From: Pseudomonas sp. P5_109
GTDB taxonomy: Bacteria > Pseudomonadota > Gammaproteobacteria > Pseudomonadales > Pseudomonadaceae
Length of the DNA stretch: 64,000 bases
Assembly: GCF_034009455.1 (NCBI RefSeq)
Contig: NZ_CP125380.1
Span: 4,663,501-4,727,500 of the forward strand
Reading direction: 5' to 3'
The position numbers and the translations under genes were made by a program. Shown here piece by piece: positions 6,153 through 38,737 of the stretch. Position 1 is the stretch's first letter; every line of letters begins with the position of its first letter. Below the pieces are notes generated by a model. The model had not been told where the DNA came from. It worked only from the letters and a program-made list of their open reading frames with translations, and did not search any database.

Positions 6153-6162
6153 GGGGAACGAG

Positions 6163-7860: not shown

Positions 7861-7901
7861 GACGACCCCTATTGTCTTTATTTATGGGCTACCGGCGGTC
7901 T

Positions 7902-8031
7902 CTTGTGGGAGCGACCTGTGGCGAGGGGGCTTGCCCCCGCTGGGTTGCGAAGCAGCCCCAAAATTTCCGATGTATCGAAGATCTTGTGAGTGCTGCGCAC
8001 TCAAACGGGGGCAAGCCCCCTCGCCACAGGC
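7902..8031. repeat. REP-like inverted pair (type C)
   Basis: Facing copies of tgtggcgagggggcttgccc, the left one preceded by a partial type A start (ttgtgggagcg). They sit in the divergent region between the ligase gene and liuA, outside the operators. Confidence 0.82.
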
Positions 8032-8088
8032 CATCACCACAGGATGGGTCCGCTGTTCTATCTTGAACTGTCTCTACTCTCGCTCAAG

Positions 8089-8104
8089 TTGACGTTAACG
8101 TAAA
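8089..8104. promoter_or_regulatory. LiuR operator 1 (ligase/liuA intergenic)
   Basis: TTGACGTTAACGTAAA, near-palindromic about GTTAAC. It matches the operator before liuR at most positions and probably serves the divergent ligase promoter and/or liuA. Confidence 0.8.
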
Positions 8105-8131
8105 GGGTGATTGACAGCCATTCGTCACAGG

Positions 8132-8148
8132 CTTACGTTAACGTAAAG
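8132..8148. promoter_or_regulatory. LiuR operator 2 (proximal to liuA)
   Basis: CTTACGTTAACGTAAAG contains a perfect 14-bp palindrome (TTACGTTAACGTAA), 53 bp before the liuA start. A TTGACA at 8111-8116 would be the matching -35, placing the operator over the spacer/-10 as in MerR-type control. Confidence 0.8.
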
Positions 8149-8201
8149 GTGAGAGCCCATTGACAGTCTCACCAACCGACAAAAAAGCCAAAAGGTGACC
8201 C

Positions 8202-9365: not shown

Positions 9366-9377
9366 ACGGAGCTGTCC

Positions 9378-10985
<1,608 letters not shown>

Positions 10986-10990
10986 TTTTC

Positions 10991-11082
10991 TGTGGGTGCG
11001 GGCTTGTGTGGCGAGGGAGCTGGCTCCCGTTCGATTGCGTAGCAATCGTAAAACCCTTTCGCGAGCAAGCCCGCTCCCACAA
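10991..11082. repeat. Composite REP inside the liu operon
   Basis: The left part combines type A (tgtgggtgcgggctt) and type C (gtggcgagggagctggctccc) arms; the right part is a type A core. It fills most of the 118-bp liuB-liuC gap. Confidence 0.8.
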
Positions 11083-11103
11083 GGACCGTGGAGACGGACG
11101 AAT

Positions 11104-11916
11104 ATGAGCGACTTCAACACCCTCGAACTGCTGACCGACCCCCGCAGTTTTGCCACGCTGTGGCTCAGCCGTGAAGAAAAGAACAACGCCTTCAATGCCG
11201 AAATGATCCGCGAGCTGATCCTTGCCCTCGACAAAGTCGCGAGCGATGCCAGCCTGCGATTTCTGATCGTGCGCGGCCGTGGCAAACATTTCAGCGCCGG
11301 CGCCGACCTGGCCTGGATGCAGCAATCGGCCGAACTCGATTACGCCACCAACCTCGATGACGCCCGGGAACTGGCGGAGTTGATGTACAACCTGGCCAAG
11401 CTCAAAGTCCCGACCCTGGCCGTGGTGCAAGGCGCGGCCTTTGGCGGTGCGCTGGGCCTGATCAGTTGCTGCGACATGGCCATCGGTGCCGATGACGCGC
11501 AGTTCTGCCTGTCGGAAGTGCGCATCGGCCTGGCGCCGGCGGTGATCAGCCCGTTCGTGGTGCAAGCCATTGGCGAGCGCGCCACCCGTCGTTATGCCCT
11601 GACCGCTGAGCGCTTTGGCGGGCAGCGGGCACGGGAGCTGGGTCTGTTGTCGGAGAGTTACCCGATTGCCGAGCTGGAGCAAAAAATCGAGCAATGGATC
11701 GACAATCTGTTGCTCAACAGCCCCGCCGCCATGCGCGCCAGCAAGGACTTGCTGCGTGAAGTCGGCGATGGCTCGCTGAACCCGGCACTGCGCCGCTACA
11801 CCGAAAACGCCATCGCCCGCATCCGCGTCAGCCCTGAAGGCCAGGAAGGCTTGCGTGCCTTCCTGCAAAAACGTCCAGCAAGCTGGCAAGCACAAACCAC
11901 CAAGGAGCCCCGTTGA
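11104..11916 (+). CDS. liuC: Methylglutaconyl-CoA hydratase
   Basis: 270 residues of the enoyl-CoA hydratase/isomerase (crotonase) family. It hydrates 3-methylglutaconyl-CoA to HMG-CoA, the substrate of LiuE. The oxyanion-hole motifs HFSAGADLAWM and GAAFGGALGLISCCD are present, the catalytic-glutamate region (FCLSEVRIGLAPAVISP) follows, and the C-terminal helices are complete. ATG 11104 follows a GGAGA ribosome binding site. Its stop overlaps the liuD ATG by one base, indicating translational coupling. Confidence 0.95.
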   Translation: MSDFNTLELLTDPRSFATLWLSREEKNNAFNAEMIRELILALDKVASDASLRFLIVRGRGKHFSAGADLAWMQQSAELDYATNLDDARELAELMYNLAKLKVPTLAVVQGAAFGGALGLISCCDMAIGADDAQFCLSEVRIGLAPAVISPFVVQAIGERATRRYALTAERFGGQRARELGLLSESYPIAELEQKIEQWIDNLLLNSPAAMRASKDLLREVGDGSLNPALRRYTENAIARIRVSPEGQEGLRAFLQKRPASWQAQTTKEPR

Positions 11917-13871
11917 TGAGCGCACCTGTCCTCACCACCCTGCTGGTGGCCAACCGTGGCGAAATCGCTTGCCGGGTCATGCGTACCGCCAAGGCGCTGG
12001 GCCTGACTACCGTGGCCGTGCACAGCGCCACCGACCGTGACGCCCGGCACAGCCGTGAAGCCGACATTCGTGTTGACCTGGGCGGCAGCAAAGCCGCCGA
12101 CAGCTATCTGCAGATCGACAAACTGATCGCCGCCGCCAAGGCCAGCGGTGCCCAGGCGATCCATCCAGGTTATGGCTTTCTGTCCGAGAACGCCGGGTTC
12201 GCCCGCGCCATCGAAAACGCCGGCCTGATTTTCCTCGGCCCGCCCGCCTCGGCCATCGACGCCATGGGCAGCAAGTCTGCCGCCAAGGCCTTGATGGAAA
12301 CCGCCGGCGTGCCGTTGGTGCCCGGTTATCACGGCGAAGCCCAGGACCTGGAAACCTTCCGCGCCGCCTGCGAACGCATCGGCTACCCGGTACTGCTCAA
12401 AGCCACGGCCGGTGGCGGCGGCAAAGGCATGAAAGTGGTCGAGGACGTCAGCCAACTGGCCGAAGCCCTGGCCTCGGCACAGCGCGAGGCGCAGTCGTCG
12501 TTCGGCGATTCGCGGATGCTGGTGGAGAAGTACCTGCTCAAGCCACGTCACGTGGAAATCCAGGTGTTCGCCGACCAGCACGGCAACTGCCTGTACCTCA
12601 ACGAACGTGACTGCTCGATTCAGCGCCGCCACCAGAAAGTCGTCGAAGAAGCCCCGGCGCCGGGCCTGAGCCCGGAACTGCGGCGCGCCATGGGCGAAGC
12701 CGCCGTGCGCTCGGCCCAGGCCATTGGCTATGTCGGTGCCGGCACCGTGGAGTTTTTGCTGGATGCGCGCGGCGAGTTCTTCTTCATGGAGATGAACACC
12801 CGCCTGCAAGTGGAACACCCGGTCACCGAAGCCATCACCGGCCTCGACCTGGTGGCCTGGCAGATTCGCGTGGCACGCGGCGAAGCCTTGCCGATGACCC
12901 AGGATCAGGTGCCGCTGGTAGGGCATGCGATCGAAGTGCGGCTATATGCCGAAGACCCGGGCAATGATTTCCTGCCGGCGACCGGTCGTCTGGAACTGTA
13001 TCGCGAATCCGCCCAGGGATCGGGGCGTCGAGTGGACAGCGGCGTTGAAGAAGGCGATGAGATTTCGCCATTCTACGACCCGATGCTCGGCAAGTTGATT
13101 GCCTGGGGCGTGGACCGTGAACAGGCGCGCTTGCGCCTGCTGAGCATGCTCGACGAATTCGCCATCGGCGGGCTGAAGACCAACATCAATTTCCTGCGGC
13201 GCATTATCGGTCATCCGGCGTTCGCCGCTGCCGAACTCGATACCGGCTTCATTCCGCGCTATCAGGAGCAGTTGCTGCCGGCGCCAGCGGAACTCAGCGA
13301 TGATTTCTGGCAAGCCGCCGCCCAGGCGTTTACCCAAAGCCAGCCCCATGCAATCCGCACCGATGACCCGAGTTCGCCGTGGGCGGCACCGAACGGGCTG
13401 CGTGCAGGTTTGCCGAGAGAAATCACCCTTCACTTGAGTTGTGAAGGCCAGGACCGTGCGCTGACGCTGGGCGACATCGATGCCCACAGCGCACGGCTCA
13501 AGGGCGAGCACCTGCTGACCGAACACGACGGTGTGCGCCGTCAACACCGGGCCATACGCCGTGGCGAACATGTGTATCTGCAGTGGGATGGCGAATTGCG
13601 CCGTATCGAGTCCTACGACCCGATCAGCGCCGTCGAGGCCAGCCACAGCCATCAGGGCGGGCTCACCGCACCGATGAACGGCAGCATCGTGCGCGTCTTG
13701 GTGGAGGCCGGGCAAGCCGTCGAGGCCGGGGCGCAATTGGTGGTACTGGAAGCGATGAAGATGGAGCACAGCATTCGCGCGCCCCATGCCGGGGTGATCA
13801 AGGCGCTGTACTGCCAGGAAGGCGAGATGGTCAGCGAAGGCAGTGCGCTGGTCGAACTGGAAGAAGCGTGA
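11916..13871 (+). CDS. liuD: Methylcrotonyl-CoA carboxylase alpha (biotin) subunit
   Basis: 651 residues. An N-terminal biotin carboxylase (about 1-450) carries LVANRGEIACRVMRTAK, the glycine-rich ATP loop ATAGGGGKGMK and FFFMEMNTRLQVEHPVTE. A linker follows, then a C-terminal biotinyl domain with the attachment motif EAMKMEHS near residue 615. It carboxylates its own biotin with ATP and bicarbonate and hands CO2 to LiuB. The start is ATG 11916 with AAGGAG upstream (11902-11907), overlapping the liuC stop. It is the last gene of the operon, followed by a strong hairpin. Confidence 0.96.
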   Translation: MSAPVLTTLLVANRGEIACRVMRTAKALGLTTVAVHSATDRDARHSREADIRVDLGGSKAADSYLQIDKLIAAAKASGAQAIHPGYGFLSENAGFARAIENAGLIFLGPPASAIDAMGSKSAAKALMETAGVPLVPGYHGEAQDLETFRAACERIGYPVLLKATAGGGGKGMKVVEDVSQLAEALASAQREAQSSFGDSRMLVEKYLLKPRHVEIQVFADQHGNCLYLNERDCSIQRRHQKVVEEAPAPGLSPELRRAMGEAAVRSAQAIGYVGAGTVEFLLDARGEFFFMEMNTRLQVEHPVTEAITGLDLVAWQIRVARGEALPMTQDQVPLVGHAIEVRLYAEDPGNDFLPATGRLELYRESAQGSGRRVDSGVEEGDEISPFYDPMLGKLIAWGVDREQARLRLLSMLDEFAIGGLKTNINFLRRIIGHPAFAAAELDTGFIPRYQEQLLPAPAELSDDFWQAAAQAFTQSQPHAIRTDDPSSPWAAPNGLRAGLPREITLHLSCEGQDRALTLGDIDAHSARLKGEHLLTEHDGVRRQHRAIRRGEHVYLQWDGELRRIESYDPISAVEASHSHQGGLTAPMNGSIVRVLVEAGQAVEAGAQLVVLEAMKMEHSIRAPHAGVIKALYCQEGEMVSEGSALVELEEA

Positions 13872-15369: not shown

Positions 15370-15972
15370 TTAGGCAGGGAAATGCTGGTTGGCGATCGCC
15401 ACCACTTCCTGCTCGGAGATTGGCGCAAGTGCCGCCACCGCCCACAGGTCATAGGCCGGATGGGCGCGCTGGATCGGCAGCACCATGTCAAAGCCGGCCG
15501 CTTGCAGGGAGCCGGTCAGGACCTTCTTGGTGAAACCGCAACGGTGCGCCATGAACACGTTGCCGTTGGCCATGGCCGGGCGATGGCCGTAGAGGATGTC
15601 GATGGGCGCGATCGGGCCGGCCGGTGAAAGGTAGGCCTCCTCGGTCAGCTTGTCTTCGGCCACCAGAGCGCACACCGATTGCAGGTCCGGGCAAGTGATG
15701 ATCACGAAGCCGCCAGGCTTGAGAACTCGTTTGAACTCCGCCAGGGCTACCGGCACTTCATGGGGATAGAGATGCTCGATGTTGTGGCTGGAGAACAGCG
15801 CATCCACCGAAGCGTCCTTGACCTGGGACATATCGGTCATGGTGCCGACGATGTCCGGATTGACACTCTCATCGATATCGAAGCGCAGCTCCTGCCATTG
15901 CTCCGAGGCGAAGCCCTTGGTCGTGCTGTTCTTGCTCTTTGGACCGCAACCTACATGGAGGAAGGTTTTCAC
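15370..15972 (-). CDS. SAM-dependent methyltransferase (class I)
   Basis: 200 residues. The SAM-binding motif I is LHVGCGP at the very N-terminus; an acidic loop RFDID follows, then the post-II motif SSHNIEHLYPHEV and the family hallmark RVLKPGGFVIITCPD. Such short methyltransferases are common in surface-glycan and cell-envelope gene sets. It is transcribed away from the giant repeat gene, sharing a 398-bp upstream region. It may methylate a sugar or the exported protein of this locus, but that is context inference only. Confidence 0.85.
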   Translation of the reverse strand: MKTFLHVGCGPKSKNSTTKGFASEQWQELRFDIDESVNPDIVGTMTDMSQVKDASVDALFSSHNIEHLYPHEVPVALAEFKRVLKPGGFVIITCPDLQSVCALVAEDKLTEEAYLSPAGPIAPIDILYGHRPAMANGNVFMAHRCGFTKKVLTGSLQAAGFDMVLPIQRAHPAYDLWAVAALAPISEQEVVAIANQHFPA

Positions 15973-16370: not shown

Positions 16371-19300
16371 ATGAGCTTTATTTCTTCGTTGACCCCAGCG
16401 CAAGTCGCTGCCCTGAGTACAACCACCATTGCTGGGCTTGCGACCCAGGATATTGCCGCCTTGAGCACCGCTCAGATCGCCCAGATGACCACTGCGCAGA
16501 TCGCGGTCATCACCACACCGAACATTGTCGTGCTTTCGGCCGTGCAGGTACCGGCACTGACCACCGCGCAGGTCGTAGCTCTGACCACCGCTCAGGTCAC
16601 TGCACTGAAAACCACGCAGATCGCTGCGCTGACGACTACGCAAGTCGCTGCCTTCGAAACGACGGATATCGCTGCGCTGCCCGTTGCCTCACTCGCCAGC
16701 CTGACCACCGCCCAGACCGCAGCGCTGACCACCGCACAGGTCGTGGCCCTCACCACCGCCCAGGTGGCCGCGCTGAAAACCACGCAAGTCGCAGCGCTAA
16801 CCACCACGCAAGTGGCGGCCATGCAGGCCGTCGATGTCGCCGCGCTGACCACCGCCAGCGTCGTGGCCCTGACCACCGCTCAGGTCGCCGCACTGACCAC
16901 TGCCCAGGTCGCCGCACTGACCCCGGCCCAGATCGGTGCTCTGGAAACCGCCGACGTGGCCGCCTTGACCACGGCTCAGGTAGTGGCCCTGACCACCGCC
17001 CAGGTCGCCGCGCTGAAAACCACCCAGCTCGCTGCCCTGACCACCACCCAGGTGGCGGCCATCGAAACCGCTGACATCGCTGCCTTGCCAGTGGCCAGCA
17101 TCGCCGCGCTGACCACCGCGCAGACCGCTGCACTGACCACCGCCCAGATCGTGGCCCTCACCACCGCCCAGGTGGCCGCGCTGAAACCGGCCCAAGTGGC
17201 TGCAATGACAACCACACAAGTGGCGGCCATGCAGGCCGCCGATGTCGCCGCACTGACCAGCGCTGACGTCGTCGCCCTGACCACTGCCCAAGTCGCGGCA
17301 TTGACCACGGCACAAGTGGCGGCTCTGAAGCCGACCCAGATCAGTGCCATGGAAACCGCCGACGTGGCCGCCTTGACCACGGCTCAAGTAGTGGCCCTGA
17401 CCACCGCCCAAGTGGCGGCACTGACCACTGCGCAAGTGGCGGCCTTGACCACCACGCAAGTGGCGGCCATCGAAACCGCTGACATTGCTGCCTTGCCAGC
17501 GACCAGCATCGCCGCCCTGACCACCGCGCAGGCCGCTGCCCTGACCACCGCCCAGATCGTGGCCCTCACCACCGCCCAGGTGGCCGCGCTGAAACCGGCG
17601 CAAGTGGCTGCACTGACCACCACGCAAGTGGCGGCCATGGAAACTGCCGATGTCGCCGCGCTGACCACCGCCAGCGTCGTCGCCCTGACCACCGCTCAAG
17701 TCGCGGCACTGACCACGGCACAAGTGGCGGCACTGAAACCGACCCAGATCAGTGCCATGGAAACCGCCGACGTGGCCGCCTTGACCACCGCCCAGGTGGT
17801 GGCACTGACCACCGCTCAAGTGGCCGCCCTGACCACCGCGCAAGTGGCAGCCCTGACCACCACGCAAGTGGCGGCCATGGAAACCGCTGATATCGGTGCA
17901 TTGACCACCGCTGGTGTCGTCGCCTTGACCACTGCTCAAGTCGCGGCACTGACCACCGCACAAGTGGCGGCACTGAAACTGCCCCAGATCAGCGCCCTGC
18001 AGACTGTCGATGTCGCGGCGCTGACCACCTCCCAGGTCGTGGCCCTGACCACCGCTCAGGTGGCGGCACTGACCACCGCGCAAGTGGCTGCTTTAACCAC
18101 CACGCAAGTCGCGGCCATGGAAACTGCCGATGTTGGCGCGCTGACTTCCGCTCAGCTGGTAGCCTTGACCACTGCCCAGGTCGCGGCACTGACCACGGCA
18201 CAAGTGGCGGCTCTGAAGCCGACCCAGATCAGCGCCCTGCAGACCGTCGACGTCGCGGCGCTGACCACCGCCCAGGTCGTGGCCCTGACCACCGCCCAGG
18301 TGGCTGCACTGACCACCGCGCAAGTGGCTGCCTTGACCACCACGCAAGTGGCGGCCATCGAAACCGCTGACATCGCCGCCTTGCCAGTGGCCAGCGTCGC
18401 CGCGCTGACCACCGCGCAAGCCGCTGCCCTGACCACCGCCCAGGTCGTGGCCCTCACCACCGCCCAGGTGGCCGCGCTGAAACCGGCCCAGGTCGCTGCA
18501 CTGTCCACCACGCAAGTGGCGGCCATGCAGGCCGCCGATGTCGCCGCACTGACCACCGCCAGCGTCGTGGCCCTGACCACCGCCCAGGTCGCGGCGCTCA
18601 CCACCGCCCAGGTCGCGGCACTGACTCCGGTTCAAATCGCGGCTCTGGAAACCGCTGACGTAGCGGCATTGACTACCGCTCAGGTGGTGGCGTTGACCAC
18701 CGCTCAGGTGGCTGCCCTGACCACCGCGCAAGTGGCTGCCTTGACCACCACGCAAGTGGTGGCCATCGAAACCGCTGATATCGGTGCATTGACCACTGCT
18801 GGTGTCGTCGCCTTGACCACGGCCCAGGTCGCGGCACTGACTACCGCCCAGGTCGCGGCTCTGAAACCGACCCAGATCAGTGCCATGCAGACTGTCGATG
18901 TCGCGGCGCTGACCACCGCCCAGATCGTGGCCCTGACCACCGCCCAGGTGGCGGCACTGACCACCGCGCAAGTGGCGGCCTTGACCACCACGCAAGTGGC
19001 GGCCATCGAAACCGCTGACATCGCTGCCTTGCCAGCGGCTAGCGTCGCCGCGCTGACCACCGCGCAGACCGCGGCCCTGACCACCGCCCAGGTCGTGGCC
19101 CTCTCCACCGCCCAGGTGGCAGCGCTGAAACCGGCCCAGGTGGCTGCACTGACCACCACGCAAGTGGCGGCCATGGAAACTGCCGATGTCGGCGCCCTGA
19201 CTTCTGCCCAACTGGTGGCCTTGACCACTGCACAGGTCGCGGCACTGACCACGGCACAAGTGGCGGCTCTGAAACCGACCCAGATCAGCGCCCTGGAAAC

Positions 19301-22060
19301 CGCCGACGTGGCCGCCTTGACCACGGCTCACGTGGTGGCCCTGACCACCGCCCAGGTGGCGGCACTGACTTCCGCGCAAGTGGCGGCCTTGACCACCACG
19401 CAAGTGGCGGCCATCGAAACCGCTGATATCGCTGCCTTGCCACTGGCCAGCGTCGCCGCGCTGACCACCGCGCAGACCGCTGCCCTGACCACCGCCCAGG
19501 TCGTGGCCCTCTCCACCGCCCAGGTGGCCGCGTTGAAACCGACCCAAGTGGCTGCACTGACCACCACGCAAGTGGCAGCCATGGAAACTGCCGATGTCGG
19601 CGCCCTGACTTCTGCCCAACTGGTAGCCCTGACCACTGCCCAGGTCGCGGCACTGACCACGGCACAAGTGGCGGCACTGAAACCGACCCAGATCAGCGCC
19701 TTGGAAACCGCCGACGTGGCCGCCTTGACCACCGCCCAGGTGGTAGCACTGACCACCGCCCAGGTGGCGGCACTGACCACCGCGCAAGTGGCAGCCTTGA
19801 CCACCACGCAAGTGGCGGCCATCGAAACCGCTGACATCGCTGCCTTGCCAGCAGCCAGCATCGCTGCGCTGACCACCGCGCAAGCCGCTGCCCTGACCAC
19901 CGCCCAGGTCGTGGCCCTCACCACCGCCCAGGTGGCCGCGCTGAAACCGGCCCAAGTGGCTGCACTGACCACCACGCAAGTGGCGGCCATGGAAACTGCC
20001 GATATCGGTGCGCTGTCCACCGCCAGCGTCGTGGCCCTGACCACCGCTCAGGTGGCGGCACTGACCACGGCACAAGTGGCGGCACTGAAACCGGCCCAGA
20101 TCAGCGCCATGGAAACCGCCGACGTGGCCGCCTTGACCACGGCCCAGGTGGTGGCGTTGAGCACCGCCCAGGTGGCTGCCTTGACGACCGCGCAAGTGGC
20201 TGCCTTGACCACCACGCAAGTGGCGGCCATTGAAACCGCTGATATCGGTGCATTGACCACCGCGGGTGTCGTCGCCTTGACCACTGCCCAAGTCGCGGCA
20301 CTGACCACGGCACAAGTGGCGGCACTGAAACCGACCCAGATCAGCGCCCTGCAGACTGTCGACGTCGCGGCGCTGACCACCGCCCAGGTCGTGGCCCTGA
20401 CCACCGCCCAGGTGGCCGCTCTGACCACCGCACAAGTGGCTGCGTTGACCACCACGCAAGTGGCGGCCATCGAAACCGCTGACATCGCAGCCTTGCCAGT
20501 GGCCAGCGTCGCCGCGCTGACCACCGCGCAGACCGCTGCCCTGACCACCGCCCAGGTCGTGGCCCTCACTACCGCCCAGGTGGCGGCGCTGAAGGTGACC
20601 CAGATCGCAGCCCTGACCACCACGCAAGTGGCAGCCATGGAAACTGCCGATGTCAGCGCCCTGACTTCTGCCCAACTGGTAGCCTTGACCACTGCCCAGG
20701 TCGCGGCACTGACCACGGCACAAGTAGCGGCTCTGAAACCGACCCAGATCGGCGCCTTGGAAACCGCCGACGTGGCCGCCTTGACCACGGCTCAGGTAGT
20801 GGCCCTGACCACCGCCCAGGTGGCGGCACTGACCACCGCACAAGTGGCGGCCTTGACCACCACGCAAGTGGCGGCCATCGAAACCGCTGACATCGCCGCC
20901 TTGCCAGCGACCAGCATCGCTGCCCTGACCACCGCGCAAGCCGCTGCCCTGACCACCGCCCAGGTCGTGGCCCTCACCACCGCCCAGGTGGCCGCGCTGA
21001 AACCGGCCCAGGTAGCTGCACTGACCACCACGCAAGTGGCGGCCATGGAAACTGCCGATGTCGGCGCGCTGTCCACCGCCAGCGTCGTGGCCCTGACCAC
21101 TGCTCAGGTCGCAGCGCTGACCACAGCGCAAGTGGCGGCACTGAAACCGACCCAGATCAGTGCCATGGAAACCGCCGACGTGGCCGCCTTGACCACCGCC
21201 CAGGTGGTGGCGTTGACCACCGCTCAGGTGGCCGCTCTGACCACCGCGCAAGTCGCTGCCTTGACCACCACGCAAGTGGCGGCCATGGAAACTGCCGATG
21301 TTGGCGCCCTGACTTCCGCTCAACTGGTGGCCTTGACCACCGCCCAGGTCGCGGCACTGACCACGGCACAAGTGGCGGCATTGAAACCGGCCCAGATCAG
21401 CGCCATGGAAACCGCCGATGTAGCGGCGCTGACTACCGCCCACATCGTGGCGCTGACCACCGCTCAGGTGGCGGCCTTGACCACCGCCCAAACGGCGGCA
21501 TTGACCACCACGCAAGTGGCGGCCTTTGAAACCGCGGACATCGCCGCGCTGACAGTGGCCGACACTGCCAGCCTGACCACCGCGCAGACTGCGGCCCTGA
21601 CCACCGCCCAGGTAGTTGCCCTGACCACCGCCCAAGTGGCGGCGCTGAAGGTGACCCAGATTGCAGCCCTGACCACCACGCAAGTGGCGGCCATGGAAAC
21701 CGCCGATATCGGCGCGCTGACGTCTGCCCAGCTGGTAGCGTTGACCACTGCCCAGGTCGCGGCACTGACCACGGCGCAGATCGCGGCCTTCAAGCCGACC
21801 CAGATCAGCGCCTTGGAAACCGCCGATGTGGCGGCCCTGACCACCGCGCAGATCGTGGCGATCGAAACCACCGACATGGCGGCATTGACCACGGCGCAAG
21901 TCGCGGCACTGACCACGGCGCAAGCCGCAGTCCTGACCACGGCGCAACTGTCGCACCTGTCGATGACCCAGGTTGATTCGTTCACCACCGCGCAACTGCA
22001 GGCGATGACCGCCACCCAGATCGACGCGCTGGCCCTGTCCACGCCGCTGGTCCTGGACCT
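16371..22060 (+). repeat. Tandem octapeptide-coding repeats (24 bp) in 408-bp super-repeats
   Basis: The basic unit is 24 bp, about gtggcggcactgaccaccgc plus caa/cag. Units of distinct type recur in fixed order, giving longer repeats of 17 octads (408 bp). The same phrase gaaaccgccgacgtggccgc recurs at 16944, 17352 and 17760, exactly 408 bp apart. GC-rich codon choice keeps several other frames open over kilobases. Confidence 0.92.
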
Positions 22061-22904
22061 CAACGGCGATGGCGTGCAGACCACCCACCTGAGCAACGGC
22101 GTCAAGTTCGACCTCAATGCCGACGGCCACAAGGAAGCCACTGGCTGGACCGCTGGCGGTGACGGCCTGCTGGCACTCGACCTCAATGGCGATGGCCAGG
22201 TCAACGATGGCTCCGAGCTGTTCGGTTCCTCGTTCCGTCTGCCGGACGGTTCGTTGGCCAAGGACGGCTTCGAAGCACTCGTCAGCCTCGACAGCAACCA
22301 TGACGGCGCGCTCAACTCGGCTGACCAGTTGTTCTCGGCGCTGCAAGTCTGGGTCGATGCCAACAACGATGGCGTCAGTGAAAAGGGCGAGATGCACACC
22401 CTCAAGGAGCTGGGCATCACCCAGTTCAATCTGGATGTGGCCAAGACCGCTGAGCTCAACCATGGCAACCTGATCGGTCTGGACAGCAGCTACCAAACCA
22501 GCGATGGCCAGAGCCATACGATCGCCGACGTCTGGTTCCGCACCGACGCCAATGGCAATCAGTCCCTGGACCTGACCAAGCTGGATTCGTCGAAAGTCGA
22601 TGCCCACTCCCTGGGTGCCATCGATCTGTCGACCGATGGCGGCAAGGCCAGCGTACTGACCGTCAATGCAGAGACAGTCGCCAAGCTCGGCCAGGCTGGC
22701 CAGGTGGATGTGGCCAGCGGTGCCGCGGCACCGGTGCAGATGATCATCGACGGTGACCATAACGACACGGTCAACATCACTGGCGACAGTGGCCACTGGC
22801 AGGCGGCCGGAACCACCACGGTCGATGGCGCCAGCTACAACGTGTTCAACGACGGCGACGTCCAGTTGTTGGTCGCAACCGACGTGCAGACTTGGATTCA
22901 CTGA
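16371..22904 (+). CDS. Giant Thr-rich octapeptide-repeat protein, type I secretion candidate
   Basis: About 2,177 residues. Residues 1 to about 1895 are some 235 octapeptides of the form TTAQVAAL, with variants KPTQISAL, TTTQVAAI, ETADVAAL and PVASVAAL. There is no signal peptide. The last ~280 residues hold calcium-loop motifs (DLNGDGVQ, DLNGDGQVNDGSE, DSNHDGALN, DANNDGVSEKGE) and end in an Asp/Gly-rich region resembling C-termini of type I-secreted adhesins (DGDHNDTVNITGD...LLVATD). Start ATG 16371 is chosen because ACAGGA lies 7 nt upstream; ATG 16347 in the same frame would add eight residues. Downstream are a GT41 glycosyltransferase and a convergent ABC/HlyD/TolC exporter. It lacks an evident LapA-type N-terminal retention module. 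Function unknown; an adhesin or surface polymer is plausible. The repeats could be short alpha-helical (LTxxQVxAL resembles helix starts) or a solenoid. Confidence 0.88.
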   Translation: MSFISSLTPAQVAALSTTTIAGLATQDIAALSTAQIAQMTTAQIAVITTPNIVVLSAVQVPALTTAQVVALTTAQVTALKTTQIAALTTTQVAAFETTDIAALPVASLASLTTAQTAALTTAQVVALTTAQVAALKTTQVAALTTTQVAAMQAVDVAALTTASVVALTTAQVAALTTAQVAALTPAQIGALETADVAALTTAQVVALTTAQVAALKTTQLAALTTTQVAAIETADIAALPVASIAALTTAQTAALTTAQIVALTTAQVAALKPAQVAAMTTTQVAAMQAADVAALTSADVVALTTAQVAALTTAQVAALKPTQISAMETADVAALTTAQVVALTTAQVAALTTAQVAALTTTQVAAIETADIAALPATSIAALTTAQAAALTTAQIVALTTAQVAALKPAQVAALTTTQVAAMETADVAALTTASVVALTTAQVAALTTAQVAALKPTQISAMETADVAALTTAQVVALTTAQVAALTTAQVAALTTTQVAAMETADIGALTTAGVVALTTAQVAALTTAQVAALKLPQISALQTVDVAALTTSQVVALTTAQVAALTTAQVAALTTTQVAAMETADVGALTSAQLVALTTAQVAALTTAQVAALKPTQISALQTVDVAALTTAQVVALTTAQVAALTTAQVAALTTTQVAAIETADIAALPVASVAALTTAQAAALTTAQVVALTTAQVAALKPAQVAALSTTQVAAMQAADVAALTTASVVALTTAQVAALTTAQVAALTPVQIAALETADVAALTTAQVVALTTAQVAALTTAQVAALTTTQVVAIETADIGALTTAGVVALTTAQVAALTTAQVAALKPTQISAMQTVDVAALTTAQIVALTTAQVAALTTAQVAALTTTQVAAIETADIAALPAASVAALTTAQTAALTTAQVVALSTAQVAALKPAQVAALTTTQVAAMETADVGALTSAQLVALTTAQVAALTTAQVAALKPTQISALETADVAALTTAHVVALTTAQVAALTSAQVAALTTTQVAAIETADIAALPLASVAALTTAQTAALTTAQVVALSTAQVAALKPTQVAALTTTQVAAMETADVGALTSAQLVALTTAQVAALTTAQVAALKPTQISALETADVAALTTAQVVALTTAQVAALTTAQVAALTTTQVAAIETADIAALPAASIAALTTAQAAALTTAQVVALTTAQVAALKPAQVAALTTTQVAAMETADIGALSTASVVALTTAQVAALTTAQVAALKPAQISAMETADVAALTTAQVVALSTAQVAALTTAQVAALTTTQVAAIETADIGALTTAGVVALTTAQVAALTTAQVAALKPTQISALQTVDVAALTTAQVVALTTAQVAALTTAQVAALTTTQVAAIETADIAALPVASVAALTTAQTAALTTAQVVALTTAQVAALKVTQIAALTTTQVAAMETADVSALTSAQLVALTTAQVAALTTAQVAALKPTQIGALETADVAALTTAQVVALTTAQVAALTTAQVAALTTTQVAAIETADIAALPATSIAALTTAQAAALTTAQVVALTTAQVAALKPAQVAALTTTQVAAMETADVGALSTASVVALTTAQVAALTTAQVAALKPTQISAMETADVAALTTAQVVALTTAQVAALTTAQVAALTTTQVAAMETADVGALTSAQLVALTTAQVAALTTAQVAALKPAQISAMETADVAALTTAHIVALTTAQVAALTTAQTAALTTTQVAAFETADIAALTVADTASLTTAQTAALTTAQVVALTTAQVAALKVTQIAALTTTQVAAMETADIGALTSAQLVALTTAQVAALTTAQIAAFKPTQISALETADVAALTTAQIVAIETTDMAALTTAQVAALTTAQAAVLTTAQLSHLSMTQVDSFTTAQLQAMTATQIDALALSTPLVLDLNGDGVQTTHLSNGVKFDLNADGHKEATGWTAGGDGLLALDLNGDGQVNDGSELFGSSFRLPDGSLAKDGFEALVSLDSNHDGALNSADQLFSALQVWVDANNDGVSEKGEMHTLKELGITQFNLDVAKTAELNHGNLIGLDSSYQTSDGQSHTIADVWFRTDANGNQSLDLTKLDSSKVDAHSLGAIDLSTDGGKASVLTVNAETVAKLGQAGQVDVASGAAAPVQMIIDGDHNDTVNITGDSGHWQAAGTTTVDGASYNVFNDGDVQLLVATDVQTWIH

Positions 22905-22932
22905 GTTTCAGTGGTAAACCTTGACTGATCCG

Positions 22933-22966
22933 ATACCGGGCTCGAAAGAGCTCGGTATTTTTTTAT
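22933..22966 (+). terminator. Terminator after the giant repeat gene
   Basis: Stem ATACCGGGCTC / GAGCTCGGTAT with one G-U pair and a GAAA tetraloop, followed by a T-run (tttttttatt). It lies just before the glycosyltransferase start, so the transferase is expressed by read-through or from its own start. Confidence 0.88.
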
Positions 22967-22986
22967 TGGAAGAGATCGTCGCGCAA

Positions 22987-24822
22987 ATGCCTAGACAGAA
23001 TCTTGAGAGCCCGAACCTCGATATCGTGCTGGCCGCAGCCCTGCAGCTGGCCGAGGGCGTCGCTCTGGAACCGATGAAGTTGCTCGAAACCGCAGACCGG
23101 CTCAATGGCGCGCAGCGCATCACCGATGTCGCTGCGCTCTACCAGCGCTGGCTGCAGCACTGCCATTCGTCGGTCAATTACATTATCCAGTTCAACCTGG
23201 GAACCACGCTGTCGCAACTGGGGCAGATCGAGGCCGCAGAGGCAGCCTATCGCGCCGCCATTGCCCAGAACCCGGAATTCGCCCAGGCGTGGTTCAACTT
23301 GGGGACGCTTCTGGAGCGTCAAAACAAACCGCAGGAGGCCCTGGCCATCTGGCAGTCGTTGCTCGATGACCGGCTGGTCGACGCCACGCAAAGCCGCGAG
23401 CTGTACCTGATGACCTGCAACAACCTGGGCCGCCTGTTCGAGGAAACCCGGCAGTTGCAGAAATCCGAAGCCATCCTGCGCACCAGTCTGGAAGTCGACC
23501 CGCATCAACCCAAGGTGATTCAGCACTGGGTGCACTTGCGCCAGAAACAATGCGTCTGGCCGGTCTATGAGCCACCGGCGGGCTTGACCCGTGGCGACTT
23601 GTTCAAGGCGTCCTCGCCCTTGGCACTGCTCGCCGGCAGCGATGACCCTGGCCTGCAACTGGCCGCCGCGGTGCACTTCGTCAAGGAACGGGTCAATGTA
23701 CGGGTACCCGCCCTGGCTCCGGCCCAGGGCTATGGCCACCAGAAGCTGCGCATCGGCTTCCTGTCCTCGGACTTCTGCCTGCATGCGGTGTCGTTGCTGA
23801 CGGTGGAGCTGTTCGAACTGATCGATCGGCAGCGCTTCGAGGTGTACGGTTTTTGCTGGACCCGCGAAGACGGCTCGCCCCTGCGCGAACGGGTCAGGCA
23901 GGCAATGGATCACTTCGTGCGCATCGACGCCATGGATGATGCCGCTGCCGCGCAATGCATCCGCGACCATGAGATCGACATCCTCATCGACCTGCATGGG
24001 CTGACGTCCGGGGCCCGTCCGGACATTCCGGCCTTCCGCCCGGCTGCGGTGCAGATGACCTACCTGGGCTTTCCCGGGTCGACCGGGCTGCCAGGCATCG
24101 ATTATGTAATCGCCGATCGCTACCTGATCCCCGACAGCGAGAAGGCGTACTACAGCGAAACACCGCTGTACCTGGCGCAGATCTACCAGTGCAGCGATCG
24201 CCAACGACCTGTTGCGGCGCTGCCGACCCGCGCCGAGTGCGGCTTGCCGCAAGACCGTTTCGTGTTTTGCTCGTTCAACAACAACTACAAGTTCAACGAA
24301 GAAGTATTCGACTGCTGGATGCGCATCCTGCACCGCGCGCCCGACAGTGTGTTGTGGCTGCTGGCCGACAACCCCTGGGCCCAGGAAAACCTCTGCGCCA
24401 GGGCCGAGGCACATGGCGTGAACCCGGCTCGCCTGCTGTTCGCCCCGCGGGTCGCACCAGCGCAATACCTGGCCCGCTACAGTGCCGCGGATCTGTTCCT
24501 CGATGCGTACCCGTTCAACGCCGGGACCACGGCCAACGATGCCCTGTGGATGGGCCTGCCGGTGCTGACCCGCTCGGGACGCACGTTTGCCTCACGCATG
24601 GCTGGCAGCCTGCTGACTGCGCTGGACCTGCCGGAGCTGATCACCACCACGCTGGCCGAGTACGAAGAGCGTGCCGTCGAACTGGCGACCCAGGCGGATC
24701 TGTTGCCCGGCTTGCGTGAGCGTCTGCACCAGGGCCGCGAGCACTCGGCGCTGTTCGACACCCCACGCTTCGTCAGGGATTTCGAGGACGCGATCAGCAG
24801 TGTCGCGCCTGGCCGGGTGTAG
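22987..24822 (+). CDS. GT41 O-GlcNAc-transferase-like glycosyltransferase with TPRs
   Basis: 611 residues. The N-terminal ~220 residues are TPR-like (AEAAYRAAIAQNPEFAQAWFNLG, then LLERQNKPQEALAIW). The C-terminal catalytic part is of the OGT/SPINDLY type: LRIGFLSSDFCLHAVSLL, DLHGLTSGARPDIPAFRPA, QMTYLGFPGSTGLPGIDYV, SFNNNYKFNEEVFDCW, and the donor-site block LDAYPFNAGTTANDALWMG followed by RSGRTFASRMAGSLL. These enzymes add a sugar (GlcNAc or fucose in characterised members) to Ser/Thr of cytosolic proteins, with TPRs holding the acceptor. The neighbouring Thr-rich giant is the obvious candidate. ATG 22987 is chosen because the earlier TTG 22921 lies before and across the terminator. Its stop codon is inside a REP element. 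Confidence 0.9.
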   Translation: MPRQNLESPNLDIVLAAALQLAEGVALEPMKLLETADRLNGAQRITDVAALYQRWLQHCHSSVNYIIQFNLGTTLSQLGQIEAAEAAYRAAIAQNPEFAQAWFNLGTLLERQNKPQEALAIWQSLLDDRLVDATQSRELYLMTCNNLGRLFEETRQLQKSEAILRTSLEVDPHQPKVIQHWVHLRQKQCVWPVYEPPAGLTRGDLFKASSPLALLAGSDDPGLQLAAAVHFVKERVNVRVPALAPAQGYGHQKLRIGFLSSDFCLHAVSLLTVELFELIDRQRFEVYGFCWTREDGSPLRERVRQAMDHFVRIDAMDDAAAAQCIRDHEIDILIDLHGLTSGARPDIPAFRPAAVQMTYLGFPGSTGLPGIDYVIADRYLIPDSEKAYYSETPLYLAQIYQCSDRQRPVAALPTRAECGLPQDRFVFCSFNNNYKFNEEVFDCWMRILHRAPDSVLWLLADNPWAQENLCARAEAHGVNPARLLFAPRVAPAQYLARYSAADLFLDAYPFNAGTTANDALWMGLPVLTRSGRTFASRMAGSLLTALDLPELITTTLAEYEERAVELATQADLLPGLRERLHQGREHSALFDTPRFVRDFEDAISSVAPGRV

Positions 24823-24917
24823 GAGCGAGCTTGCTCGCGATGGACTTGAGAGCGCCACGTTTAGTCAGTAAACACGCGTTATCGTTAACGACCATCGCGA
24901 GCAAGCTCGCTCCTACA
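24818..24917. repeat. REP inverted pair (type B) overlapping a stop codon
   Basis: Facing tgtaggagcgagcttgctcg cores between convergent genes. The TAG stop of the glycosyltransferase gene is the tag of the left REP arm. Confidence 0.88.
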
Positions 24918-24922
24918 GTTGA

Positions 24923-26251
24923 TCAGAACAACCCCTGGACCTTTTCCAGCTCGTTGCGGGTCATCAGGCCGGTGTGGGTGTGCAGGTTGACATAGCTTTG
25001 CAGCATCGCCAGCTTGGTATCGAGCAGGTCACGCTTTGAAGAGAACAGGCGCTGTTGGGCGTCGAGGATGTCGACCGTCGAGCGCACGCCGGCCTCATAG
25101 CCTTTTTCCGCGGATTTCAGGGCGGTCTGGCTGGATCGCACGGCGGTCACCAGCGCCTTGATTTTCTCGAAGCCCGCCACCACCCCCAGGTAGTTGAGCT
25201 CGAGGTCCTCATTCATTTGCTGGAGCTGGACCTCATAGCCGGACCGGGCACTCTCCAGGGCAGCACGGGCCTTTTCGGTAGAAGCGCTGACCCCGCCGCC
25301 CTGGTATATAGGGATATCGATGACGACGCCCACGTAGTAGGTCGACTGGCGCTGGGTCGTTTCGTTCAGGTCGCTCTGGCCGACCCGTGCGAGCCGGCCG
25401 CTCAGTGCTACGGTCGGGTAGTGCCCGGCCTTCTGTTGCTTGAGGTTGGCTTCGGCCACTTTGATCGAAGCACGGCTGATGCCCAGTGCAGACGCGGTCT
25501 GGTCGGCCTTGATCAGCCAATAGTCGAGGTCCTGCTCGGGTGCAAGCAAGGCGGCGGCCGGTGCCTGCTCTTGCATCTGCGGGATCTCGCTGACGGTAAT
25601 CCCGGCGCGGCCCGCCAGCTTGCGCAGGGCCGCGCGATGCTGGGCCTGCAACTGAATTTCCAGGGCGCGGATCGAATCGAGCCGGGCTTGAGCCTCTTCA
25701 AGGTCTGTGATGCTGCCTTCACCGGCTTCGAACAAGCGTCGGGATTGCTTGGCCAATTCTTCGACCGAGGCTTTCTGCTGGGTCGTCAGCTTGAGTTCGT
25801 TTTCCACCTGGGCGAGATCGAAATAGGCCTGCACCACGCGATCGAACAACTCCTGGTCGGCACCTTCGTGCTGGACTCCGCCCAGTTGCCCACGCGCCTT
25901 GGCCTGTTCGTAGGAGGCCCAGCGGCCTTTGTCGAACAGCGGTTGGATAACCGACAGGGCAATGCTGTCGGAAGCGTACTGATCGTCCTGGCTATTGGTC
26001 GATGACTGGTGTTCAAACAGGCCACCCTGACCGTAGCGTGAGTTGATGGCGACCTGAGGCAGCAAGCCGCTGCGGCCGATAGCCTCTTCCTGGCGCGATG
26101 CCTCGTAGTCATGGTTGGCAACCTGGTAGGTCGCATCGTTGAGCCGCGAGGCGTCGTAGAGAGCGACCAGTGACAACGGCGCTTCAGCCGCCAGCAGCCG
26201 GCACGAGCAGAACACGGAGAGTAGCAAGGCGATACGTACGGACACGGTCAT
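24923..26251 (-). CDS. TolC-family outer membrane channel of a type I secretion system
   Basis: 442 residues with a signal peptide (ALLLSVFCSCRLLAAEA). Two homologous TolC-type halves are rich in long amphipathic helices, with a family-typical start LYDASRLNDATYQVANHDYEASRQEEAIGRSGLLPQV (split here by the usual helix boundaries) and the late motif DILDAQQRLFSSKRDL. It forms the outer-membrane duct of the exporter. Its start overlaps the HlyD stop by 4 bp (ATGA), so the two are translationally coupled. It is the last gene of the three-gene operon and converges on the glycosyltransferase. Confidence 0.94.
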   Translation of the reverse strand: MTVSVRIALLLSVFCSCRLLAAEAPLSLVALYDASRLNDATYQVANHDYEASRQEEAIGRSGLLPQVAINSRYGQGGLFEHQSSTNSQDDQYASDSIALSVIQPLFDKGRWASYEQAKARGQLGGVQHEGADQELFDRVVQAYFDLAQVENELKLTTQQKASVEELAKQSRRLFEAGEGSITDLEEAQARLDSIRALEIQLQAQHRAALRKLAGRAGITVSEIPQMQEQAPAAALLAPEQDLDYWLIKADQTASALGISRASIKVAEANLKQQKAGHYPTVALSGRLARVGQSDLNETTQRQSTYYVGVVIDIPIYQGGGVSASTEKARAALESARSGYEVQLQQMNEDLELNYLGVVAGFEKIKALVTAVRSSQTALKSAEKGYEAGVRSTVDILDAQQRLFSSKRDLLDTKLAMLQSYVNLHTHTGLMTRNELEKVQGLF

Positions 26252-27582
26252 TCTTCCTTGAAAGCGCCAGCCATACGTTCGGTCACCGGCTGCATCAAGT
26301 AGTTGGCAAGGGTGCGTTCGCCGGTCTTGACCAGGACTTCAGCCTGCATGCCTGGCTTGACGTCCAGGCCCAACTCGCGCAGATGGATGATCGCCTCGGG
26401 ACTGACCGAGACCTCCACCGAGAAGTAGGGCGAACCGCTGTGTTCGTCGATCAACTGGTCGGCCGACACCGTGAGCACCTTGCCGACGATCACCGGGGTG
26501 TGGATCCGTTGCAACGAACCGAAACGCAGATCGACCGGCAGCTCCGGCTTGAGCCGGTCGGCCATCATCGGCGGGAATTGCGCCTTGACCACCCAGCTGG
26601 AACCTTGCGGGACAATGTCCATCAGGCGCTGGCCCGCGGGGGCGACGCCGCCGACGGTGTGCACGGTCATGCCCATCACCTGGCCGGCGACGGGCGCGAC
26701 GATTGCGGCGCTGTTGACTTCGAATTCCAATGACTTGATCTGGTCGATCAGGCTCGATGTCTGCGCCACGACCTGGGTCAATTGCGACTCGGCGTCGCTG
26801 CGAAAGACCTGTCCCTGTTGCAGCGCCTTGAGCTCGCTTTCATTGATCGCCTGGCGCGTGCGGCCGATATCGGAAACGCTCGAAGCCAATTGGGCGCCCA
26901 ACTGCGCCGCACTGCTTTCGGCTTCGAACAGCCGGTTGCGTGGCAGATAACCTTCACGGGCCAGTTCCCGCAGCCCCGTGAGCGCCTGCTGCTGGAATTG
27001 CAGTTGTACGGCGTGGTTGCGCTTGATCTCTTCGAAGCCCTGGAGCTGTTCTTTGAGCGAGGCTATTTCGTGCTGGCTGATTTGCATGCGACTGGCCAGT
27101 TCGGCACGGCGGGTGGCGAACAGATAGCCTTGCAGCTCCATCGCCGCGACGGCACGCGGGTCGCCGGCGCGGGCCAGCAATGCTGCGGACCACTGCACAG
27201 TGTCGCGGTTCAGGCGTTCGGCCATCAGCCGATCCTCGACGGCGCGAGCGCCGAGCCACTGGCCCAGGGCGACATCCAGTTGCGACTTGGCCTGGACAGT
27301 GTTGAGCTGCATCACTATCTGCCCCTGCTGTACCTGGTCGCCCTCACGTACCAGGATGTTGTCGATGGTGCCGCCGGTGCGCGACTGCACGGTCTTGCGT
27401 TCGCCGGAAACCACCACCGTGCCGCTACCGACCACGCCGCGGTCAAGTGGCGCCAGGCAGGCCCAGAGCAGGAACCCGCCGAGGCCCAGGAGCAAAAACC
27501 ACACACCGATCCTGGCAATGCCCGCGGCATCCGCATTGGGCTTGTTCTCGGGGGTCGAAATGTCGGTCGAACTGGCTTGCAT
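26248..27582 (-). CDS. HlyD-family membrane fusion protein of a type I secretion system
   Basis: 444 residues. A short cytoplasmic tail is followed by one transmembrane helix (about 25-46, VWFLLLGLGGFLLWACLAPL), a lipoyl/barrel half (VVVSGERKTVQSRTGG), a long coiled-coil hairpin (about 120-290) and the C-terminal HlyD signature (VVAPVAGQVMGMTVHTVGGV...MDIVP). It bridges the ABC transporter and TolC. The start at 27582 (MQASSTD) is chosen; an in-frame extension runs antisense-like through the ABC gene and is composition noise. It starts 7 bp after the ABC stop. Confidence 0.94.
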   Translation of the reverse strand: MQASSTDISTPENKPNADAAGIARIGVWFLLLGLGGFLLWACLAPLDRGVVGSGTVVVSGERKTVQSRTGGTIDNILVREGDQVQQGQIVMQLNTVQAKSQLDVALGQWLGARAVEDRLMAERLNRDTVQWSAALLARAGDPRAVAAMELQGYLFATRRAELASRMQISQHEIASLKEQLQGFEEIKRNHAVQLQFQQQALTGLRELAREGYLPRNRLFEAESSAAQLGAQLASSVSDIGRTRQAINESELKALQQGQVFRSDAESQLTQVVAQTSSLIDQIKSLEFEVNSAAIVAPVAGQVMGMTVHTVGGVAPAGQRLMDIVPQGSSWVVKAQFPPMMADRLKPELPVDLRFGSLQRIHTPVIVGKVLTVSADQLIDEHSGSPYFSVEVSVSPEAIIHLRELGLDVKPGMQAEVLVKTGERTLANYLMQPVTERMAGAFKEE

Positions 27583-27589
27583 TGACGCC

Positions 27590-29311
27590 TCAGGCTTCTT
27601 GATTACGGAGTTCGACGGCTTTTGCCGGCGTCGCTGGCACCAGGGTCTTGAGCACCTGGTCACGCGGGCCGAACAGGGTTTGTACGCCGTCCTTGAGGAA
27701 CAACAGCTTGTCGACCGCGCCAAGAATGCTCGGCCTGTGGGTGACCAGCACCACGGTGCTGCCTTCGGCCTTGAGCTTGCGCACGGCCTGCACCAGCGCC
27801 GCTTCACCGGCATCGTCGAGGTTGGAGTTGGGCTCGTCGAGCACCACCAGAGCCGGCTGGCCATACAACGCGCGGGCCAGGCCGATGCGCTGCTTCTGGC
27901 CGCCGGACAACCCCAGCCCGCCAGTCCCGAGCAAGGTGTCATAGCCTTTGGGGAAGTGCAGGATCATCTCGTTGATACCAGCCAGTTGCGCCGCTGCGAT
28001 GACCTTGCCTGCGTCCACCTCGCCGAAACGCGCGATGTTTTCGGCGATGCTGCCATCGAACAGCTCGATGTCCTGCGGCAGGTACCCCAGGTGCGGGCCG
28101 AGCGCTGCGCGCGACCACTGGCCGACCTCGGCGCTGTCCAGACGTACCGAGCCCTGCTTGGCAGTCCAGATGCCGACCATCGCGCGCGCCAGGGAAGACT
28201 TGCCCGACGCGCTCGGACCGATGATCGCCAGTACTTCGCCCTTGGCCAGGCTGATAGTCACGCCATTGACCGCAGGCTTGTGCATGCCCGGCGGGATGAT
28301 CACCAGGCGGTCGATGCTAAGGGCCCCGGTCGGCGCTGGCAGGGGCATGCCTGGTGCGGTTTTGGGAAATTCGCCGAGCAGGCGGTTCAAGCGTTCGTAG
28401 CTGCTTTTGGCGTTACCCATCTGCTTCCACGAACCGATCAGCGCTTCGGCCGGCGCCATGGCCCGTCCCAGCAATACCGACACGGCGATCATCACCCCGG
28501 CGGAAATCTGGTTCTCGATCACCAGGATGGCGCCCAGGCCAAGGGCCAGCGATTGCCAGGTCATGCGCACAAAGCGTGTCAGCGCAGCGATCCGCGAACT
28601 GCGGTCACTGGCCTCACCCTGCTCGGTAATGACCCGCTGCTGCACGTTGAACCAGCGCTGGCGCAAGGGCGCGAGCATGCCCATCGCCTGAATCACTTCG
28701 GCGTTCTGCAAGGTACTGTTCACGTAGCTGGAAGACGCCACGGACAAACGGTTGGCCTCGCTCATGCTTTTGCGGGTGGTCATCTCGTTCCAGACGCCCA
28801 GCCCGGCAAGAATTAGCGAGCCGATGACAGTGAAACTCCCAAGCCAGGGATGGAACAGGAACGTCGCGATGACATAGATCGGCAGCCACGGCGCATCGAA
28901 GATAGCAATCAGCGCGGGACCTGTGACGAACTGCCGGATGCTGTTCAAATCGCTCAGAACCTGCGCCGGGTTGGAGCTGTGCTCCTTCAGGCTACGCTCG
29001 AACGCCGCATCGAATACCCGCTCGCCCAACTGAGTGTCCAGGCCGGCGCTCATCTTGATCATCACCTGGCCGCGCACCCACTCCAGCACACAGCCAAGGG
29101 CAAAGAACCCGAGCAAGATAAGGCTCAGCATCAACAGCGTGGTTTCATTGCGACTGGTCAGGACGCGGTCGAAAACCTGCATCATATAGATGGACGGGAC
29201 CAGCATCAGCAGGTTGATCACCCCGCTGAACAGTGCCAACACGCCGAACAGCCGGCGATAACGTAGCAACGCTGCATCGATATCTCGCTGGGGATCTAGG
29301 AAAAATCGCAT
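27590..29311 (-). CDS. Type I secretion ABC transporter (PrtD type)
   Basis: 573 residues. The transmembrane domain (about 1-320) begins directly, with no C39-like or other N-terminal extension, as in PrtD/AprD exporters of RTX proteins. The C-terminal ATPase has Walker A GPSASGKSSL, the signature LSGGQKQRIGLARALYG and Walker B/D-loop ALVVLDEPNSNLDD. It powers export of substrates with uncleaved C-terminal signals. First gene of the exporter operon. The start at 29311 (MRFFLDPQRD) is preferred; an in-frame upstream extension to 29437 has no family similarity. Confidence 0.95.
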   Translation of the reverse strand: MRFFLDPQRDIDAALLRYRRLFGVLALFSGVINLLMLVPSIYMMQVFDRVLTSRNETTLLMLSLILLGFFALGCVLEWVRGQVMIKMSAGLDTQLGERVFDAAFERSLKEHSSNPAQVLSDLNSIRQFVTGPALIAIFDAPWLPIYVIATFLFHPWLGSFTVIGSLILAGLGVWNEMTTRKSMSEANRLSVASSSYVNSTLQNAEVIQAMGMLAPLRQRWFNVQQRVITEQGEASDRSSRIAALTRFVRMTWQSLALGLGAILVIENQISAGVMIAVSVLLGRAMAPAEALIGSWKQMGNAKSSYERLNRLLGEFPKTAPGMPLPAPTGALSIDRLVIIPPGMHKPAVNGVTISLAKGEVLAIIGPSASGKSSLARAMVGIWTAKQGSVRLDSAEVGQWSRAALGPHLGYLPQDIELFDGSIAENIARFGEVDAGKVIAAAQLAGINEMILHFPKGYDTLLGTGGLGLSGGQKQRIGLARALYGQPALVVLDEPNSNLDDAGEAALVQAVRKLKAEGSTVVLVTHRPSILGAVDKLLFLKDGVQTLFGPRDQVLKTLVPATPAKAVELRNQEA

Positions 29312-38716: not shown

Positions 38717-38737
38717 GTCAGATCCAGGCCAGTCCGA

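Follow-up and report, generated by a model that had tools for sequence, protein, structure and literature searches.

A probable O-glycosylated helical-screw fibre in Pseudomonas sp. P5_109: an ALTTAQ octad-repeat giant, its linked GT41 glycosyltransferase and a neighbouring type I exporter

We analysed a stretch of 64,000 nucleotides from Pseudomonas sp. P5_109 (contig NZ_CP125380.1, positions 4,663,501 to 4,727,500 of the forward strand; hereafter the window), in which the gene for a giant octad-repeat protein of the ALTTAQ type is followed by the gene for a GT41-family glycosyltransferase and, in convergent orientation, by a type I exporter operon. Judged from sequence, this locus probably makes an exported, O-glycosylated fibre shaped as a helical screw. 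Glycosylation of the octad threonines by the GT41 enzyme is the best explanation for the data presented below, which comprise sequences, gene co-occurrence, a correlation at octad position 3, gene fusions and a predicted fold; from these we infer the glycosylation reaction and its sugar donor, the sequence of steps, export and the biological role. The locus is a version of a known theme, a cytoplasmic glycosyltransferase encoded with its exported substrate.

The giant (2,177 residues; 16371..22904, + strand) belongs to the ALTTAQ_rpt family (PF20080; 1757 bits over 62 stretches, above the cut-off). Its repeats form 235 gap-free octads with the consensus LTTAQVAA (16389..22028, + strand), and their register is unbroken over residues 15–1894 of the long open reading frame (1,880 residues). 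Thr accounts for 393 of the 1,880. Serine or threonine (S/T) occupies octad positions 2 and 3 together in 152/235 octads, and Thr-Thr in 136/235, in agreement with the preliminary description of about 235 octads, most with adjacent threonines. LTTAQVAA occurs in 62 exact copies written in 44 DNA versions and LTTTQVAA in 22 copies with only 7 DNA versions, the latter indicating some recent copying within the repeats. The longest frame opens at 16347 (+ strand, 2,185 residues) and its second Met lies at 16371; the second is the likelier start on sequence grounds, because homologues at loci L031 and L039 begin MSYISSLTPAQ at that point. An antisense frame inside the repeat gene (18093-22901, – strand, 1,602 residues) was judged to be a composition shadow of the repeat and was rejected as a gene. 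Longer ALTTAQ giants, of ~5,300–5,500 residues and >600 octads, were seen at L034, L044 and L167 of a second Pseudomonas subgroup. In each of four genomes of a family that we label f47 (G302, G314, G262 and G326), long ALTTAQ frames are spread over several contigs, and there are open frames of ~2,500–3,800 residues, each with more than one GT41 match.

The GT41 gene (22987..24822, + strand, 611 residues) lies 82 nucleotides downstream on the same strand, and the two genes probably form one operon. Its product matched PF13844 (Glyco_transf_41) at 252 bits in two stretches (cut-off 25) that cover both halves of the domain, and N-terminal tetratricopeptide repeats (TPRs) exceeded the cut-offs of TPR_1, TPR_2, TPR_8 and other models; the OGT/SPINDLY-type domain composition proposed earlier was thus borne out. 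The long frame starts at TTG 22921 (633 residues); ATG 22987 is more likely to be the start, because most close homologues among the best 120 of 5,868 matches are ~611 residues long. The best solved relative is XcOGT of Xanthomonas campestris. Like XcOGT, human OGT and SPINDLY, the enzyme has the TPR-GT41 domain order, and the aligned His and Lys of OGT, which we take to be the catalytic positions, were kept in 99/99 rows of its GT41 clade. This clade differs from them in the UDP-site motif, where the His that precedes Thr-Thr, a residue of the UDP site in OGT, is Gly in 87/99 rows; the sugar donor may therefore differ from uridine diphosphate N-acetylglucosamine (UDP-GlcNAc). We know of no dedicated exported substrate of XcOGT, human OGT or SPINDLY.

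Linkage of the two genes was examined at named loci, which here and below are the best 80 of 136 GT41 relatives. ALTTAQ repeats were present on the fetched stretch at 70/80 loci (GT41 identity 51–98%) and directly upstream of GT41 at 55/80, in hosts ranging from Pseudomonas to Geobacteraceae, Holophagaceae and Riflebacteria (Pseudomonadota, Thermodesulfobacteriota, Acidobacteriota, Riflebacteria). Absence of a Thr-rich partner in most GT41 relatives, the outcome that the preliminary description had named as counter-evidence, was thus not observed. Ten loci had no ALTTAQ repeats, and eight of these are interrupted by a contig end; L093 and L139 have an FrpC-like module at the contig edge, and L102, L108, L112, L125, L141 and L148 have <3 kb upstream before the contig ends. 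At L120 no ALTTAQ repeats were found within the ~10 kb fetched on either side of GT41.

Genome-wide sampling gave a similar association. The genome of P5_109 itself has one ALTTAQ gene and one GT41 gene. Among 199 congeners ALTTAQ repeats occurred in 12, and some GT41 was present in 12/12 of these versus 6/187 of the others, the GT41 of those six being of a distant type (29–35%). Close GT41 (69% or more) was found in 10 congeners, all within the 12 with ALTTAQ. In 11/12 ALTTAQ congeners (the window itself being among the loci read), the repeat gene immediately preceded GT41 on the same strand; a contig end cuts it in G021, G128 has a divergent pair with GT41 at ~40%, and the 20 kb read around the distant GT41 of G123 showed no ALTTAQ gene. 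In a phylum sample of 398 genomes, GT41 was present in 19/25 ALTTAQ genomes versus 109/373 others. ALTTAQ and GT41 lay on one contig within ~20 kb in several f47 genomes and in G542, G742, G767 and G830. By these gene-neighbourhood data, comparative genomics could hardly link the octad protein to GT41 more strongly, and the conserved unit is the repeat protein plus GT41, because close exporter homologues adjoin the pair only in Pseudomonas.

If the octad Thr is the acceptor, it should be rare where the enzyme is missing. We therefore compared position 3 between 69 loci at which one fetched stretch holds both ALTTAQ and GT41 (linked) and 9 unlinked copies, of which 3 belong to a single genus. 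Stretches in which fewer than 8 octads were recognised were left out, which removed one of the 70 loci (L065/G253 and L066/G384 had 5 and 0 such octads), as were copies of family f47 (several GT41 per genome, at distances not known); loci with more than one ALTTAQ frame were represented by their highest value at position 3. The linked loci had a median S/T fraction of 0.80 at position 3 (lowest 0.40), with Pro at most 0.16. The S/T fraction was 0.05–0.30 in 8/9 unlinked copies, both in GT41-less genomes (G583 0.26, G389 0.05, G467 0.13, G392 0.09, G713 0.29), where Pro reached 0.64, and in copies of GT41-bearing genomes with no GT41 on the fetched stretch (G623 0.28, G742 0.30, G542 0.22). Within G742, the linked copy had 0.95 versus 0.30 for the unlinked one. 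A rank test separated linked from unlinked copies at position 3 (p = 2e-6, kinship ignored). S/T at position 2 was common everywhere, as a helix cap would predict, and slightly higher in unlinked copies (rank test p = 0.005, in the opposite direction, kinship ignored). At the sequence level, the position-3 pattern supports Thr as the acceptor.

The last 486 residues of the giant, including the last ~24 octads, were modelled with AlphaFold from an alignment of 25 sequences (mean predicted local distance difference test score 82, predicted template modelling score 0.68; 85–98 in the first 17 ten-residue blocks and 75–83 in the last repeats). The model has one helix of ~6 residues per octad beginning at position 3, with positions 1–2 forming the link, so that the repeats look like a predicted solenoid and not like a disordered mucin. 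HeliScrew4 (PDB 9zem), a solved protein of 120 residues, matches the repeats by sequence (E 7.7e-18), so that at least one structure of this type of repeat has been determined by experiment. It has the same octad as ALTTAQ_rpt (PF20080) and differs in its shortness and in LTPEQ-like repeats, whose position 3 is mostly Pro. HeliScrew4 was not named in any paper found in the searchable literature.

Beyond the repeats, the giant carries a Ca-binding domain resembling the FrpC self-processing module (22044..22547, + strand, residues 1900–2067 of the long frame), which has the predicted fold of the Ca-loaded module. In FrpC and ApxIVA, self-processing RTX proteins, an Asp-Pro is the site that is cut and cross-linked, according to the accessible part of the source (PMC7078468). 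In contrast, the scissile Asp of the giant is replaced by Thr, and the clip-and-link Asp-Pro at the N-terminal edge of the module was absent from all sequences aligned (Thr-Pro or Ser-Pro in 25/25). The beta-rich C-terminal tail (22548..22901, + strand) is the probable type I secretion signal region. It gave a weak RTX-like match; the RTX nonapeptide family PF00353 was not among the five Pfam families listed for the giant. An N-terminal signal peptide was not apparent by eye, the only means by which it was judged.

Further enzymes that could act on a glycan accompany the pair. Divergent from the giant lies a gene for an S-adenosylmethionine-dependent methyltransferase (Methyltransf_11 by Pfam; 15370..15972, – strand), a candidate accessory glycan methyltransferase. 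Relatives belonging to one Pseudomonas subgroup have it next to the locus at 86–99% identity, and weaker homologues (36–40%) stand beside GT41 at L091, L093, L094 and L096; in G118 and G194, which represent the second Pseudomonas subgroup, it was not found on the fetched stretches. At L120 (Thiospirillum jenense; 9956-12370) GT41 carries a fused methyltransferase that shares 52% identity with that of the window, and L127 and L147 have methyltransferase-like stretches (34–38%) within their GT41 frames. Other GT41 fusions carry a GT2/GT92-like (L098) or a GT4-like domain (L142). A distance of 7–8 kb separates the ALTTAQ gene from GT41 at L121, L099, L115, L116, L118 and L119; at L121 (2184-9950) the interval holds FkbM and other methyltransferases, GT4, GT9 and a below-cut-off O-FucT match.

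Converging on the pair is an operon on the – strand that encodes a TolC-family outer-membrane channel (24923..26251; TIGR01844, 260 bits, cut-off 225), an HlyD-family periplasmic adaptor (26248..27582, ATG at 27582; TIGR01843, 324 bits, cut-off 209) and a type I secretion ABC permease/ATPase of the PrtD type (27590..29311, ATG at 29311; TIGR01842, 730 bits, cut-off 510). With ABC, HlyD and TolC together above curated cut-offs, this is a type I secretion system, as complete and as oriented as first described. Close exporter homologues stand next door at 18/80 named loci, all in Pseudomonas; of the three-part co-occurrence proposed in the preliminary description, the repeat-GT41 pair thus held, and the exporter only within this genus. 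Among congeners with the close pair the exporter is next door in 8/10, and the other two (G003, G144) have a complete exporter operon elsewhere, with ABC at 85–86% identity. An orthologous ABC (85% or more) was present in 8/10 close-pair congeners versus 0/73 ALTTAQ-negative ones tested (73 of 187, E up to 1e-195). The linked exporters of G118 and G194 are only 67–68% identical and fall inside a wider ABC family, members of which (65–67%) occur in 8/73 ALTTAQ-negative congeners. Among genomes tested outside the genus, together with the divergent Pseudomonas that carries L117, the best related ABC is at 49–51% in the hosts of L107, L117, L130 and L135, and the hosts of L126, L133, L143 and L145 have only distant ABCs (27–30%). 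These comparisons mark the exporter as specific to the pair in one of the two Pseudomonas subgroups and as plausibly so in the other, and export of the repeat protein by its neighbour is likely in Pseudomonas.

Two other features of the window were noted. A second giant (53086-63999, – strand, continuing past the window; L246) has an animal haem peroxidase domain and RTX repeats, read from the 3,204 residues coded by 53086-62700, and a type I exporter operon lies near it just beyond the window, with an ABC 54% like that of the window. The product of 38624-41089 (+ strand) is VgrG-like (Phage_GPD, with a baseplate V match just below cut-off), which suggests a type VI spike or tail hub.

In the mechanism that we propose, the ALTTAQ protein would encounter the GT41 enzyme, the product of the adjacent gene, before it leaves the cytoplasm. 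Guided by its TPRs, the enzyme would add a sugar to octad Thr/Ser, chiefly at position 3 at the start of the short helix, and glycans would thus be spaced regularly along the solenoid. In some relatives, further transferases or methyltransferases may extend or cap the sugar, a part for which the 15370-15972 methyltransferase would be the candidate here. The adjacent PrtD/HlyD/TolC exporter would recognise the C-terminal end of the giant and thread the protein out. Outside the cell, calcium would fold the FrpC-like module and the repeats would fold into a long solenoid, which may serve as a surface or matrix fibre or as an adhesin.

Several observations weigh against this scheme. At L103 a GT41 of the same clade (55%; 5438-12574) adjoins flagellin and FliD, with no ALTTAQ gene there, possibly reflecting a switch of GT41 substrate. 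The phylum figure is less independent than it appears, because 16/19 genomes with both genes come from family f47 (genus g108, 9 genomes; g121, 7), and 6/25 ALTTAQ genomes of that sample have no GT41. Five of these six have one ALTTAQ match each and the sixth, G583, a long array; 6/289 genomes of the class to which G583 belongs have ALTTAQ, 4 of those 6 with GT41. At position 3, the S/T fraction is 0.66 in a G767 copy despite the lack of a GT41 on the 20 kb fetched, and linked L130 (0.40) and a linked G542 copy (0.36) are low; all p-values are only indicative, since relatives are not independent samples. No named locus outside Pseudomonas has a close exporter homologue next door, and another export route must therefore be assumed there; the ALTTAQ congeners G128 and G123 have ABC relatives at best 48% and 29% identical. 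Dense glycans may also hinder passage through a type I channel, and small sugars would be needed. The earlier claim of cytoplasmic O-glycosylation on Thr followed by export is accordingly upheld in part: position-3 S/T goes with GT41 linkage, and the exporter falls outside the conserved core.

The octad Thr might instead be purely structural, with position 2 capping the helix and position 3 in its first turn, while GT41 modifies something else or a few end sites. In the AlphaFold model, T2 indeed falls within the link of two residues and T3 opens the helix, and S/T persists at position 2 in HeliScrew4 and in relatives from GT41-less genomes. However, a structural demand should not depend on the presence of GT41, whereas position-3 S/T is 0.05–0.29 in the five GT41-less genomes measured and high when linked, with position 2 not lower in unlinked copies; we regard this explanation as unlikely. 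Slightly less probable still is that GT41 glycosylates the giant while the neighbouring exporter serves other cargo, the product remaining cytoplasmic or leaving by another route. The 62/80 loci with no close exporter homologue on the fetched stretch fit such a reading, as do the ABC relatives in ALTTAQ-negative congeners and the ALTTAQ-bearing G178, where another ABC of this kind (66%) adjoins the gene for an RTX protein that contains an epimerase-like domain. Against it, the ABC orthologue tracks the pair in Pseudomonas even when encoded elsewhere in the genome, and the giant combines an FrpC-like Ca module with the lack of a visible signal peptide.

The GT41 family also includes HMW1C of Haemophilus influenzae, a cytoplasmic enzyme that modifies the large exported adhesins HMW1/HMW2, as given in the accessible part of the source (PMC3983070). 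An HMW1C-type N-glycosyltransferase acting on Asn of the giant is nevertheless extremely improbable: the 1,880 repeat residues hold one Asn and no N-x-S/T site (three such sites lie in the C-terminal region), the N-glycosyltransferase equivalog model NF049992 scored 26 bits against a cut-off of 1000, and TPRs are present. The HMW system further differs in its Asn-linked hexoses, an AAD fold instead of TPRs and type Vb secretion, and to our knowledge HMW1/HMW2 have no octad array. FlmG, like the GT41 enzyme of the window, has TPRs. This O-glycosyltransferase of Caulobacter crescentus is also cytoplasmic, with an N-terminal substrate-binding domain and an exported target, the flagellin FljK, for which the available excerpts report four modified Thr (PMC7591256); it differs in its flagellin substrate, pseudaminic acid and flagellar export. 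No description of the ALTTAQ-GT41 pair was found in the searchable literature, a scope that leaves most subscription journals and bioRxiv outside.

Returning to the glycosylated fibre, we suggest tentatively that ALTTAQ-GT41 pairs constitute a widespread bacterial glycofibre class, in which a cytoplasmic OGT-type enzyme would decorate the first turn of each octad helix along an alpha-solenoid of 100 to >600 octads. The resulting regular glycan ladder would be extended or methylated by partner enzymes and exported, in Pseudomonas by a type I exporter dedicated to it, as material for the cell surface or the biofilm matrix. The glycofibre would then be a folded, helical counterpart of mucin, and a missing enzyme would go with a missing Thr at octad position 3; this proposal as a whole carries somewhat less than even odds in our estimation. 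Hosts of the pair include the floc and biofilm formers Thauera and Accumulibacter, and glycoproteins have been reported in the matrix of Accumulibacter enrichments in a source whose accessible part does not name the ALTTAQ-GT41 pair (PMC11320575). The correlation at position 3 makes the acceptor site directly testable. Many bacterial OGT-type enzymes have no known substrate. If the proposal is true, such enzymes would have a dedicated substrate family, type I secretion would join the routes by which pre-glycosylated proteins leave the cell, and the octad array would provide a regular, genetically tunable glycan scaffold.

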